A stretch of 64,000 nt of DNA from Alphaproteobacteria bacterium (GTDB taxonomy: Bacteria > Pseudomonadota > Alphaproteobacteria > Micropepsales > Micropepsaceae), in assembly GCA_021325375.1 (NCBI GenBank), contig JAJPHG010000024.1, positions 186,001-250,000 of the forward strand. The letters run 5' to 3'. Under the pieces are notes generated by a model. That model made no database searches. It was given only the letters and a program-made list of their open reading frames with translations, and had not been told where the DNA came from. The position numbers and the translations under genes were made by a program. Every line of letters starts with the position of its first letter. Position 1 is the stretch's first letter. Of this stretch, positions 546-63,045 are shown piece by piece.

Positions 546-1562
546 ATGAAACGTCCGACGCTCGCGCTCTGCCTTGCGCTCGCAGCCCTGCCCGCGCGGG
601 CGGCGACCTCCGTCACCTTCGTCACCGACTGGAAGGCGCAGGCCGAGCATGGCGGCTTCTACGAGGCGCTCACGGAGGGGCTCTATGCCAAGCGCGGCTT
701 GAACGTGCGCATCGTCCAGGGCGGGCCGAGCGTGAACGTGCCGCAGCTTCTCGCCGGGGGCGTTGCGGATTTCGGCATCGGCTCGAACGACTTCATCGCG
801 CTCAACATCGTCGCGGCCGGCGCGCCGGTGAAGGCGGTGGCCGCGATCTTCCAGAAGGACCCGCAGGTCCTCATCACCCATCCGCGCGCCGACGTGAAGG
901 GGCTGAAGGACATGAAGGCCAAGCCGATCATGATCGCCGACGCCTCGCGCGCCGCGTTCTGGCCGTGGCTCAAGGCCCGGTACGGCTACGACGACGGGCA
1001 GATCCGCAAATACACCTTCAACCTCGCGCCGTTCCTCGTCGACAAAAGCGCGATCCAGGAAGGCTATCTCACCAGCGAGCCCTACACGATCGAGAAGCAG
1101 GCGCATTTCAAGCCGCAGGTCTTCCTGCTCGCCGACAACGGCTATCCCGGCACCGCCAACCTCGTGCTCGCGACGCGCAAGATGATCGATGCCAAGCCGC
1201 AGGTGGTGCAGGATTTCGTCGACGCCTCGATCCTGGGCTGGACGCATTATCTCTACGGCAACCCCGCGCCCGCCAACGCGCTCATCAGCCGCGACAACCC
1301 GGAGATGACCGGCGACGTCATCGCCCAGGCGATCGCCAAGATGAAGGCTTACGACATCCTCGAGCCCAAGGGGCTGAAGCTGCACACCATCGGCGACATG
1401 AGCGACGCGCGCTGGAAGGCTTTCTTCGACACGATGGCGTCCGAGGGCCTCTATCCCAAGACGCTGGCATGGCGCGACGCCTACACGCTCGATTTCCTGC
1501 AGGGCCTCATCAACAACGGCAAGGACGTGGGCCACGTGGATTTCGTGATGGAGAAGAAGTAG
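546..1562 (+). CDS. ABC transporter substrate-binding protein, NMT1/SsuA/ThiY type
   Basis: A 338-residue periplasmic binding protein. It has a signal peptide of about 20 residues ending ARA. The start of the mature protein (VTFVTDWKAQAEHGGFYEAL) is typical of NMT1/THI5-like proteins, which bind thiamine precursors, sulfonates or nitrate-like ligands. KRGLNVRIVQGG and the GVADFGIGSNDFI segment are further family features. The ATPase (1997) and permease (3370) of the same importer type lie downstream on the same strand, so the three should form one system. The ligand cannot be told from sequence; a pyrimidine or other small organic ligand is a guess. A GIY-YIG element separates this gene from the ATPase. 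Confidence 0.85.
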   Translation: MKRPTLALCLALAALPARAATSVTFVTDWKAQAEHGGFYEALTEGLYAKRGLNVRIVQGGPSVNVPQLLAGGVADFGIGSNDFIALNIVAAGAPVKAVAAIFQKDPQVLITHPRADVKGLKDMKAKPIMIADASRAAFWPWLKARYGYDDGQIRKYTFNLAPFLVDKSAIQEGYLTSEPYTIEKQAHFKPQVFLLADNGYPGTANLVLATRKMIDAKPQVVQDFVDASILGWTHYLYGNPAPANALISRDNPEMTGDVIAQAIAKMKAYDILEPKGLKLHTIGDMSDARWKAFFDTMASEGLYPKTLAWRDAYTLDFLQGLINNGKDVGHVDFVMEKK

Positions 1563-1601
1563 GGGCGATTGCGCTCTCGGTGCTTATAACCTACCGTAAG
1601 T

Positions 1602-1976
1602 GTCATGGCCCGCGAATGCGGGCCACCCAGATGACGCTTGCGCAACTCGAGGACTTATTACGTCTACATTCTCGCAAGCGGACGCAACGGCACGCTCTAT
1701 ATCGGCGTGACAAACGACTTGGCCCGCCGCGTCTGGGAGCATCGCGAAGGGTTGGTGCCCGGCTTCACCAGAAAATACGGCATCAAACGGCTCGTCTATT
1801 TCGAGGCTTTCAGCGATATCCAATCTGCCATTGCACGGGAGACGCGCTTGAAGAAATATAAGCGCGAGTGGAAGATGAACCTCATTCAGGCGAGCAATGT
1901 CGAATGGCGGGATTTATACCGCGCGATAGTCGCCTGAGCGGTGTCACCTGGGTGGCCCGCATTCGCGGGCCATGAC
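1602..1976 (+). mobile_element. GIY-YIG element with 34-bp terminal inverted repeats
   Basis: The left end (1602-1635) and right end (1943-1976) are inverted copies identical at 33 of 34 positions; the only difference is an A/G after CACCCAG. Each end starts GTCATGGCCCGCGAATGCGG and is itself a hairpin, because GGCCCGC pairs with GCGGGCC. The GIY-YIG gene starts 2 nt inside the left end and stops 5 nt before the right end, so the unit is end-gene-end with almost no spare DNA. The flanks could be read as AAGT/AAGT, but other copies show no matching duplication, so I do not claim a target duplication. It lies between two genes of one ABC importer. Confidence 0.8.
1638..1937 (+). CDS. Small GIY-YIG nuclease inside palindromic element
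   Basis: A 99-residue single-domain GIY-YIG endonuclease. YVYIL at 8-12 and LYIGVT at 20-25 are the GIY and YIG strands. Arg30/31 in ARRVWEH and Glu68 in ARETRLKKYK match the conserved catalytic Arg and metal-binding Glu. The family cleaves DNA or branched structures; small forms like this (YhbQ-like) are mostly uncharacterised. The only usable start is TTG 1638, and no Shine-Dalgarno sequence precedes it, because the upstream DNA is the terminal palindrome. A nine-codon ORF from ATG 1605 ends at TGA 1632-1634, 3 nt before this start, so reinitiation is possible. Its close fit between inverted ends suggests it acts on the element, which is inference. Confidence 0.85.
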   Translation: MRNSRTYYVYILASGRNGTLYIGVTNDLARRVWEHREGLVPGFTRKYGIKRLVYFEAFSDIQSAIARETRLKKYKREWKMNLIQASNVEWRDLYRAIVA

Positions 1977-1996
1977 AAGTTTTGTTTGCTGGATAA

Positions 1997-2764
1997 ATGA
2001 CACTCCCCCTCCTCACCCTCCGCGCCGTGTCCAAGCGCTTCGACAATGGGGTCGAGGCGGTCGGGCGCGTCGATCTGGAGGCGCAGGAGGGCGAGTTCGT
2101 GTCGCTGGTGGGGCCGTCGGGATGCGGCAAGTCGACGGCGCTGCGCATCATCGCGGGCCTCGTGGCGCCCAGCGCGGGCATGGTCGAATTCCCTTGCGGC
2201 AGGCCCGAGCTCGGCTTCGTCTTCCAGGACCCGACGCTGATGCCCTGGGCGGACGCGGCCACCAACGCGCGCCTGCCGCTCGACCTCAAAGGCGTGGCGC
2301 GCGCGCAGGCGCAGGCGCGCGCGCTGCGCGCGCTGCATCGCGTGGGGCTCGAGGGCTTCGAGAAGGCGTACCCGCGCGAGCTTTCGGGCGGCATGCGGAT
2401 GCGCGTCTCCATCGCGCGCGCCATCGCCTCGGAGCCGAAGCTGCTCTTGATGGACGAACCCTTCGCGGCGCTGGACGAGCTGTCGCGCCAGGCGTTGAAC
2501 GACGACCTTCTCAAGCTGGCGCGCGAGGACGGCATCACCGTGCTCTTCGTCACCCACAGCGTGTTCGAGAGCGCCTATCTCTCCTCGCGCGTCGTGGTGA
2601 TGACCCCGCGTCCCGGACGCGTCGCGGCCGAGGTGCTTCTCAGCCCCCCGGCCGCGAGCCGCGACGTCTCATGGCGCATGACGCCCGACTTCGCCGACGG
2701 CGCGCGCCGCGTGTCGGACGCGCTCAAAAGCGCGATGCAGGCGGCTCAGGGGCCCGGGCCCTGA
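1997..2764 (+). CDS. ABC transporter ATPase (nitrate/sulfonate/thiamine-precursor type)
   Basis: A 255-residue ATPase that drives the importer. It has Walker [10 protein letters not shown] (39-47), Q-loop Gln77 in [10 protein letters not shown], signature LSGGM (129-133), Walker B LLLMDEP (149-155) and H-loop His187. The [10 protein letters not shown] stretch and overall length match the SsuB/TauB/ThiZ group. ATG 1997 begins 20 nt after the right end of the GIY-YIG element, so any transcript from the binding-protein gene must pass through that element. The 3' end overlaps the last 19 nt of the convergent gene at 2746. It belongs with the binding protein at 546 and the permease at 3370. Confidence 0.9.
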
Positions 2765-13468: not shown

Positions 13469-13663
13469 GTCATGGCCCGGTCCATAGCGACAGCGTATGG
13501 ACGCGGGCCACCCAGGTGACGCCTGCTCGAACTTAAAAGAATTTCACGCGGAGACGCGGAGTCGCGGGGGTTCTTTCTTTCTCTGCGACTGCGCGCCTCC
13601 GCGTGAATCATTTTCCGCAATGTGCAGAACCCAGCTGGGTGGCCCGCAGTCGCGGGCCATGAC
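13469..13663. repeat. Three-hairpin palindromic element, copy 3
   Basis: The left arm begins GTCATGGCCCGG and has a longer hairpin tip (TCCAT...ATGGA) than other copies, closing with GGGCCACCCAGGTGACGC. The centre is the long inverted repeat beginning TTCACGCGGAGACGCGGAG and ending CTCCGCGTGAA. The right end reads TGCAGAACCCAGCTGGGTGG then the arm ending GGGCCATGAC. Left and right differ just inside the arm (CAGGTGACGC against CAGCTGGGTTCTGCA), so the element has two distinct ends. It lies between the POT gene and the MFS gene at 12212. Confidence 0.85.
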
Positions 13664-13673
13664 ATTTTTGGGT

Positions 13674-30334: not shown

Positions 30335-30371
30335 AGCGGGTTGTCTTCAATTTGACCCGATCAAATTCAAT

Positions 30372-30550
30372 GTCATGGCCCGCGACTGCGGGCCACCCAG
30401 TTGGGTTCTGCACGATCTTGCAATGAGTCGCGCGGAGACGCGGAGATCGCGGAGTTGAGCTTTTCCTCCGCGATCCCCGCGTCTCCGCGTGATTCATTTG
30501 CGAGTGCAAAGCAGGCGTTACCTGGGTGGCCCGCAGTCGCGGGCCATGAC
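30372..30550. repeat. Three-hairpin palindromic element, copy 4 (opposite orientation)
   Basis: The outer arms are GTCATGGCCCGCGACTGCGG and its inverse ending GGGCCATGAC. Here the CAGTTGGGTTCTGCAC end is on the left and the CAGGTAACGCC end on the right, the reverse of copies 3, 5 and 6. The centre is the GCGGAGACGCGGAGATCGCGGAG hairpin. It fills the gap between the decarboxylase (+) and the AHSA1 operon (-), where it may serve as a terminator for both. Confidence 0.85.
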
Positions 30551-30610
30551 AGGTTTTTTTTGATTCCAATCGATCACAACCTGCTCTAGAGCTCCTGCGC
30601 GCGACGGCGC

Positions 30611-49093: not shown

Positions 49094-49101
49094 GCCCTCT
49101 T

Positions 49102-49268
49102 GTCATGGCCCGCGAATGCGGGCCACCCAGGTGATACAACTTTGCTTTTCAAATGATTTCACGCGGAGGCGCGGAGAAGAAAGAACCTCTGCGGCTCCGC
49201 GTCTCCGCGTGAATCTTTTTTGGACGGTGCGGAATCTAACTGGGTGGCCCGCATTCGCGGGCCATGAC
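49102..49268. repeat. Three-hairpin palindromic element, copy 5
   Basis: Arms are GTCATGGCCCGCGAATGCGG at the left and the exact inverse at the right, ending GGGCCATGAC. The left inner border is CACCCAGGTGATAC, the right one GTGCGGAATCTAACTGGGTG. The centre is a shorter version of the ACGCGGAG hairpin. It separates the amine oxidase (+) and the Mpl-like gene (-), both of which end into it. Confidence 0.85.
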
Positions 49269-49276
49269 GGTTGGGG

Positions 49277-62052: not shown

Positions 62053-62886
62053 ATGCGCGGATCGATCGACGTCGCGGACGGCAGCGTCTCGCAGCTTGTG
62101 TGGGCCGCGGACGCGCCGCCGCTGCATTTCGCGCATGCCAACGGCTTCAACGCCGAAACCTATCGCGGCCTGTTGGAGCCGCTTGGCGGCGCGTTGCGCA
62201 TCGCCGCCAGCGACGCGCGCGGCCACGGCTTCACGCGCCTGCCCGCGACACCGGGCCTGGCGCGCGGCTGGACGGTCTTCCGCGACGATCTCGACCGCAT
62301 CGTGCCGGACGGCACCATCCTCGCCGGCCACTCGATGGGCGCGACCGCGAGCCTGATGCTCGCGGCGCTGAAGCCAGAGAAAGTGCGCGCGCTCGTCCTG
62401 GTCGAGCCGGTGCTGGTGCCCAAGGGCGTCGTGCCCGGCGACAACGATCTGGCACGCCGCGCCGAGAAGCGCCGCGACAACTTTGCTTCGCTCGACGAGG
62501 CGTTCGCGCTCTATCGCGGCCGCGGTGCGTTCAGGACCTGGCCCGACGAGACCCTGCGCGACTATCTGCGCGGCGGGCTGGAGCCCACGCAAGACGGCGT
62601 GCGGCTGTCGTGCCGGCCCGCCTGGGAAGCGGAGGACTTCCGCTCCACGCCGCCCGGCGTGTCGGAGCTGGCGGCGCAATTGCGCTGCCCCGTGACGCTG
62701 ATCCACGCCGCCGACGGAACCGCGTCACCGGGCGAGGTGGAGATCTTCAAGCGCCTCTATCCTGCGACGCGCGTGGTCGCGGTGCCGGGCGCGACGCATT
62801 TCCTGCCGATGGAGTTTCCGGAGCTGGTGCGGGAGGAGATTTCACGCCTCAATGTCATGGCCCGCGAATGCGGGCCACCCAGGTGA
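62053..62886 (+). CDS. Alpha/beta hydrolase with element-derived C-terminus
   Basis: A 277-residue hydrolase. HFAHANGFN holds the oxyanion region, AGHSMGA contains the nucleophile Ser94, and an acid in HAADGTASP and His in PGATHFLPME complete the likely triad. The last nine or so residues (MARECGPPR and stop) are encoded by the left end of the palindromic element at 62854, so the original terminus was replaced. ATG 62053 is divergent from the acyl-CoA synthetase. Substrate unknown. Confidence 0.85.
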   Translation: MRGSIDVADGSVSQLVWAADAPPLHFAHANGFNAETYRGLLEPLGGALRIAASDARGHGFTRLPATPGLARGWTVFRDDLDRIVPDGTILAGHSMGATASLMLAALKPEKVRALVLVEPVLVPKGVVPGDNDLARRAEKRRDNFASLDEAFALYRGRGAFRTWPDETLRDYLRGGLEPTQDGVRLSCRPAWEAEDFRSTPPGVSELAAQLRCPVTLIHAADGTASPGEVEIFKRLYPATRVVAVPGATHFLPMEFPELVREEISRLNVMARECGPPR

Positions 62887-63031
62887 TGCAGCGGCGCTCT
62901 TGAAGAAATCCCACGCGGAGACGCGGAGTTCGCGGAGAAGGAAAAGAACCTCTGCGAACTCCGCGTCTCCGCGTGAATCTTCTTGGCGCGTGCAGAACCC
63001 AGCTCGGTGGCCCGCATTCGCGGGCCATGAC
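62854..63031. repeat. Three-hairpin palindromic element, copy 6
   Basis: Arms GTCATGGCCCGCGAATGCGG and the inverse GGGCCATGAC; even the flanks extend the symmetry (CAAT before, ATTG after). The centre begins ACGCGGAGACGCGGAGTTCG and returns CGAACTCCGCGTCTCCGCGT, a stem of about 24 bp with one mismatch. The right inner border is GTGCAGAACCCAGCTCGGTG. The left border runs into the hydrolase reading frame. Confidence 0.87.
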
Positions 63032-63045
63032 ATTGGTGCTTGTTG

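Follow-up and report, generated by a model that had tools for sequence, protein, structure and literature searches.

A small GIY-YIG nuclease gene between inverted CGTC-tagged REPs: a candidate enzyme for a family of bacterial hairpin repeats

What is a gene for a small nuclease doing between two inverted palindromes? The case arises in a window of 64,000 nt, the whole stretch of DNA analysed here and the frame for all coordinates below, from contig JAJPHG010000024.1 of assembly GCA_021325375.1 (Alphaproteobacteria bacterium, Micropepsaceae). We asked to what class the palindromes belong, whether nuclease and palindromes go together elsewhere, and what their joint history suggests about the enzyme.

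The window element and its repeat family

The element and the related features of the window are as follows.

546-1562, plus strand: host gene on the left, substrate-binding protein (SBP) of an ABC transporter, annotated by sequence and context
1601-1635, plus strand: left terminal arm, containing the REP 1601-1629, head outward (hairpin and arm comparison)
1638-1937, plus strand: GIY-YIG nuclease ORF of 99 aa with a TTG start (ORF list, PF01541)
1943-1977, minus strand: right terminal arm, containing the inverted REP 1949-1977, head outward (hairpin and arm comparison)
1997-2764, plus strand: host gene on the right, ABC-transporter ATPase, which directly follows the left gene in several relatives without the element
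13636-13664, minus strand: single REP of the same family as those of the element (pattern match)
30371-30551, no strand assigned: head-out REP pair of 181 bp (REPs at 30371 and 30523), a gene-less relative of the element with asymmetric inner ends
49101-49269, no strand assigned: head-out REP pair of 169 bp (REPs at 49101 and 49241), gene-less like the pair at 30371-30551
62853-63032, no strand assigned: head-out REP pair of 180 bp (REPs at 62853 and 63003), gene-less like the pair at 30371-30551

The two arms are 35 nt each, are complementary at 34/35 positions and stand 307 nt apart, and the gene-bearing unit measures 377 bp overall. The left REP consists of a TGTC tag, a 9-bp stem with an A-C mismatch at its base, a GAAT loop and a CCAG tail, and the same hairpin, TGTC-ATGGCCCGC-GAAT-GCGGGCCAC-CCAG, is present in both arms. 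The initial annotation had described inverted ends matching at 33/34 positions (1602-1635 and 1943-1976), each of them a hairpin, around a gene whose start lies 2 nt inside the left arm and whose stop lies 5 nt before the right one; all of this was borne out, the arms being the same. Its count of five other sites with related ends was roughly right: near-identical REPs occur at four places (seven REPs, six of which form three inverted pairs), and the fifth site, at about 288-495, holds a different, related REP. This last site is a head-out pair (ACCATGGCCGGGC...) just upstream of the SBP gene, of the type that also flanks a paralogue of the nuclease gene (L001) in the same genome. The two halves enclose a CGCGGAGACGCGGAG-rich stretch; its 14-mer CACGCGGAGACGCG ranks with the commonest repeats of the genome sample described below. 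An Rfam scan of the window returned no family for these REPs, and two tRNAs alone reached the gathering score.

In the whole genome (4.77 Mb), the REP core with up to two mismatches occurs in 158 forward and 150 reverse copies (308 together) against 0 matches for the pattern read backwards, which excludes a chance origin. We counted REP types in an 864-kb sample of the genome, in which the commonest repeated 14-mers are those of the window's REP type. With a strict pattern, this type (type A) is found 57 times in the sample, and 26/26 adjacent type A pairs are head-out. Apart from the gene-bearing unit, these pairs are 124-181 bp long, and the two inner ends of a pair differ. No target-site duplication (repeat of at least 3 nt) was found at the 26 pairs, unlike what is seen with an insertion sequence or MITE.

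CGTC-tagged REPs have been described as having a CGTC tag that is often TGTC, stems of 8-9 bp beginning with AT, loops of 4-5 nt and a CCA tail; they occur mainly in Alphaproteobacteria, mainly as head-to-head pairs, and include dRS3 of Neisseria and some RPEs of Rickettsia (Di Nocera et al. 2013, PMC3733652). Neisseria, Sinorhizobium meliloti and Azospirillum lipoferum are among the taxa concerned, and the REPs were reported without a dedicated enzyme, no transposase flanked by them having been found (PMC3733652). Judged by their sequence, the window palindromes are members of this class. Both ends and nearly all copies carry TGTC, which with CCTC is an accepted variant of the tag; the 9-bp stem, 4-nt loop and CCA tail agree, with a first pair A-C instead of A-T; and the copies are dispersed, with all neighbouring pairs head-out.

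REPs with a GTAG tag are handled by RAYTs (PMC2817692, PMC8266576), and a RAYT (Y1/HUH) or another transposase might likewise move the REPs considered here, with the GIY-YIG gene as a passenger between two of them; that a small gene is carried in this way is conceivable. However, a search of the genome for a Y1/RAYT-family gene (Y1_Tnp, PF01797) found none despite the 308 REPs, Y1 presence was not associated with REP number across the genus, and the earlier failure to find a transposase flanked by CGTC REPs points the same way. A single nuclease clade recurring in many phyla, as found below, is also hard to reconcile with a passenger, and we regard this explanation as improbable.

A stand-alone nuclease clade and its flanking REPs

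The window ORF matches PF01541 with E=8e-15 and no other Pfam family, and consists of this single domain. Residues Y10, Y21, R31 and E68, which we take to be catalytic from what is known of the superfamily, are invariant or nearly so across the clade, and E56, W78 and a C-terminal N87-x2-W90-x-D92-L93 set the REP-linked clade apart from its YazA/YhbQ-like relatives. The AF2 model (pLDDT 91.3) is closest to the UPF0213 structures 1zg2 and 1ywl and next to Slx1, a structure-specific nuclease that processes branched DNA. The Pfam match, the residues, the model and the PDB matches all assign the protein to the GIY-YIG superfamily, by fold and by the catalytic Y, Y, R and E. Where it could be computed, dN/dS was about 0.1, a value that is approximate because synonymous sites are near saturation. 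Phage records contained only distant GIY-YIG homologues with 36-39% identity; a phage homing gene is therefore not the closest relation.

We collected homologues by protein similarity, irrespective of their flanks. They come from Alphaproteobacteria, Patescibacteria, Omnitrophota, Desulfobacterota, Chloroflexi, Bacteroidota, Marinimicrobia and Gammaproteobacteria, with further named records from S. meliloti, A. lipoferum, Rhizobium, Shinella, Novosphingobium and Aeromonas caviae, and the homologue of Neisseria gonorrhoeae is located among dRS3-type repeats. With a strict REP detector, 61/150 distinct strong homologues had outward REPs on both sides and 105/150 on at least one side, compared with 0/353 and 17/353 of the control ORFs from the same loci. 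When an inverted repeat around the gene was accepted as well as outward REPs on its two sides, 104/143 homologues with complete flanks were positive versus 2/350 control genes of the same loci (Fisher p ~1e-70). The GIY-YIG gene is thus placed as the gene of a RAYT/REPtron-like system would be, between cognate inverted REPs. The initial annotation had proposed to search related genomes for small GIY-YIG genes flanked by the palindrome, and held that homologues lacking such ends in other strains would count against an element; in our search the flanking recurs in other strains and in several phyla.

It might be argued that such flanking simply follows from the abundance of REPs in these genomes, or that the hairpins are the gene's own terminators; REPs are indeed common there and located close to the ends of genes. 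The control genes of the same loci, none of which had REPs on both sides, refute this, and head-outward orientation, placement upstream of the gene and covariation with tag and tail are atypical of terminators; we give the idea practically no credence.

The hairpin itself appears to be maintained. Among matches to the tag and CCA tail, taken without requiring pairing, 166/206 pair around the genes versus 48/706 elsewhere. Stem changes compensate each other: in three stem/loop classes, 7.69/8, 8.18/9 and 8.63/9 positions are paired, compared with 5.72, 6.55 and 5.17 in the corresponding classes after 3' arms had been exchanged at random among REPs, in a test that took only REPs with at most three unpaired positions. 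Judged by sequence, both hairpin and catalytic residues are evidently under purifying selection.

The genome encodes six small GIY-YIG proteins, and a seventh PF01541 match lies in a long frame. Five of the six genes have flanking palindromes, of a separate type for each gene, and one (L005) is unflanked. Each of the five flanking types is found scattered through the 864-kb sample (103, 12, 25, 16 and 15 matches), with 0-1 matches for the reversed controls, but 10 for the short type A pattern. Orthologues of three flanked genes in genome G045 have the same REP types. The mean distance between REPs is 0.136 for the left and right copies of a single element and 0.395 for copies of different elements, and protein distance correlates with REP distance (Mantel r 0.237, above all 2000 permutations), the common ancestry of the genomes being included in this value. 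Genomes of the genus with a close GIY-YIG copy contain a median of 18.5 window-type REPs versus 2 in those without (p=4e-5, uncorrected for phylogeny). Tens of window-type REPs are present in some genomes without a close GIY-YIG gene (G021, 40; G064, 57; G029, 31), which could reflect gene loss or incomplete assemblies, and some genomes of the genus have the gene and few REPs.

Presence and absence at orthologous sites

The site between the SBP and ABC genes is occupied by a GIY-YIG gene with REP ends in six relatives (G046, G067, G019, G043, G018 and G039) and empty in four (G038, G054, G037 and G065), in which the two genes are 3-23 nt apart; in G023 it holds a gene-less pair of another REP type. 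In a tree of the copies of the genus, those at the SBP-ABC site were not resolved as one clade and most forks were weak, which fits one old insertion or several. At locus L056 of G045, the GIY-YIG element lies reversed at the ABC-ATPase gene and a different contig carries the SBP gene, an arrangement that may have arisen by inversion between inverted REPs.

A second case was found in Azospirillum. A. lipoferum 4B has a REP pair, a GIY-YIG gene and another REP pair between sufB and sufC, and A. ramasamyi, A. oryzae and strain B510, which are 95-96% identical over the matched flanks, are without this unit. The four REPs around the gene are the only such copies in 100 kb of A. lipoferum, and the corresponding 100 kb of A. 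ramasamyi and A. oryzae contain 0. The matching regions being free of REPs, the unit was therefore not formed around pre-existing REPs, and the flanking is not explained by an abundance of REPs. In Shinella sp. PSBB067, this gap is occupied by another GIY-YIG element that has a REP type of its own. Near-identity plasmid searches with Rhizobium CIAT894 and R. tumorigenes, aimed at empty sites, yielded no clean pair of presence and absence.

The SBP-ABC and sufB-sufC sites are the empty sites in near relatives that the initial annotation had proposed to look for. It had also held that ends present at the orthologous site without the gene, equally often and at random, would speak against an element; the empty sites are without REPs. 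These sites also bear on the order of events. REPs might have come first, the GIY-YIG gene then entering REP pairs in the manner of some insertion sequences; insertion sequences that target REPs are known (PMC1525189). However, close relatives have empty sites without any REP at both sufB-sufC and SBP-ABC, and within an element the REPs of the two sides are far more alike than are REPs of separate elements, which makes this order very improbable.

The operon gaps at SBP-ABC and sufB-sufC have been filled repeatedly and independently by different hairpin elements (loci L220, L226, L229, L251, L237 and L250). In the SBP-ABC gap of four relatives, copies or remnants of a DUF559 (Vsr-like) gene, named from its translation, lie between CCTCCCC...GGGGAGG palindromes, and an annotated DUF559 gene lies likewise between such palindromes in the sufB-sufC gap of Sphingomonas parapaucimobilis. 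A flanking inverted repeat (score >=14) was found at 23/38 alphaproteobacterial DUF559 loci versus 0/48 control ORFs. Inverted CCTCTCCCC/CCTCCCC palindromes accompany DUF559 genes at L220, L226, L232, L233, L251 and L294-L352. The DUF559 element is a second, unrelated combination of nuclease and palindrome that sometimes shares the intergenic site of the GIY-YIG element. The YazA/YhbQ-like sister clade has CGTC REPs at 0/21 members; about 8/21 members are flanked by CATCCTGAGC...GTCGAAGGATG palindromes (sister-clade loci L006, L179, L182, L184, L185, L186, L189, L191 and L192). Elements in operon gaps are reminiscent of the REP between malE and malF of E. coli, which protects the upstream mRNA.

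Taken together, these comparisons make it almost certain that nuclease gene and REPs are associated and inherited as a unit; gene and cognate REPs evidently travel together, and each nuclease lineage stays with a REP type of its own. The main rival to a role in spreading is a service to the host, in which the nuclease acts as a caretaker of REPs that resolves cruciforms or hairpin blocks in replication, the flanking REPs regulate the gene and nothing spreads. Slx1 as the closest informative structural neighbour, the strong purifying selection on the nuclease and the fact that some relatives have long retained the gene at a single site are in its favour. It leaves unexplained, however, that gene and REPs enter REP-free regions as a unit, that REP type differs from paralogue to paralogue and that the unit is present patchily, and we consider it unlikely.

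Proposed working and comparison with known systems

Our preferred reading, to which we assign a probability of about two in three, is that the locus is a small self-contained element of the form REP, GIY-YIG gene, REP, and that the stand-alone GIY-YIG clade serves the CGTC-tagged REP superfamily as its dedicated enzyme and spreads its REPs. That the enzyme acts on the REP is very likely; that it drives REP spread is probable. The clade is at present the best candidate for the CGTC-REP enzyme, which would cut the hairpin and so bring about the spread.

The element would be the autonomous-looking member of a family whose gene-less members are dispersed REPs and head-out pairs of about 125-180 bp. 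The nuclease may recognise tag and hairpin as folded single-stranded DNA or as a cruciform and nick or cut beside them, after which host repair or replication would copy REPs or REP pairs into new intergenic sites. GIY-YIG enzymes hydrolyse, and joining would therefore have to fall to the host; no strand-transfer chemistry is known for GIY-YIG enzymes. The absence of target-site duplications agrees with joining by the host and does not prove it. The gene-bearing unit itself appears to move rarely, since the paralogues within the genome are divergent, and the activity would be exerted mainly in trans on gene-less copies, as that of RAYTs on GTAG REPs, but by a hydrolytic nuclease of a different fold. 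The initial annotation had suggested that the locus could be a GIY-YIG element able to copy or move REP-like palindromes: the flanking, the presence and absence of the unit, the matching of types and the lack of a tyrosine transposase agree with this, and the step in which the nuclease moves the palindrome is one that we infer. It had also known of no description of such an element. We likewise found no link between GIY-YIG proteins and REPs in the literature searched, a search that had most subscription papers and all preprints outside its scope, so that an earlier description is possible, and a survey of REPs from 2025 does not mention nucleases; the palindromes themselves belong to the class of CGTC REPs already described.

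There is perhaps an even chance that small stand-alone nucleases with cognate hairpins form a general class of bacterial mobile DNA, in which the GIY-YIG clade drives CGTC REPs in many phyla (Neisseria dRS3 included), its YhbQ-like sister drives CATCCTGAGC...GTCGAAGGATG and DUF559 proteins drive CCTCCCC/GGGGAGG palindromes, sometimes at identical intergenic sites. Nuclease-plus-hairpin elements with at least two unrelated folds would then be a recurrent form of mobile DNA that settles between operon genes. Dunin-Horkawicz et al. (2006) asked whether further GIY-YIG proteins might be molecular parasites (PMC1564403). If our reading is true, a GIY-YIG clade travelling with CGTC REPs answers both this question and that of the missing enzyme, and gives a role to many genes annotated merely as 'GIY-YIG nuclease family protein'. 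Of the two main families of bacterial hairpin repeats, one has lacked an engine, and these enzymes are good candidates for that role.

Among known systems, the RAYT or TnpA-REP system (REPtron; REPINs) is similar in having a low-copy gene between inverted REPs, many gene-less singlets and pairs, a hairpin with a tetranucleotide tag and a gene that persists vertically. In contrast, the present enzyme is a GIY-YIG nuclease (PF01541 only) and a RAYT is a Y1/HUH tyrosine transposase, and the repeats have a CGTC/TGTC tag with a CCA tail instead of GTAG. Because enzyme class and tag both differ, we do not class the element as a RAYT, though it is probably REPtron-like in its working. Homing endonucleases of the I-TevI type are similar in that a gene for a GIY-YIG nuclease may act as a selfish element; the present protein, unlike these, has 99 aa without a NUMOD or other DNA-binding extension, its gene lies in no intron, and the hairpin repeats that form the ends are found away from the gene too. 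UPF0213 and prokaryotic Slx1-like GIY-YIG proteins (1zg2, 1ywl, Bacillus YazA type) are similar in size, fold and catalytic residues but lack the N-x2-W-x-D-L C-terminal motif, E56 and W78 of the REP-linked clade. The repeats agree with the described CGTC REPs in their TGTC variant of the tag, 9-bp stem, CCA tail, head-to-head pairs and mostly alphaproteobacterial distribution, and differ from the earlier account in that an enzyme can now be proposed where none had been assigned.
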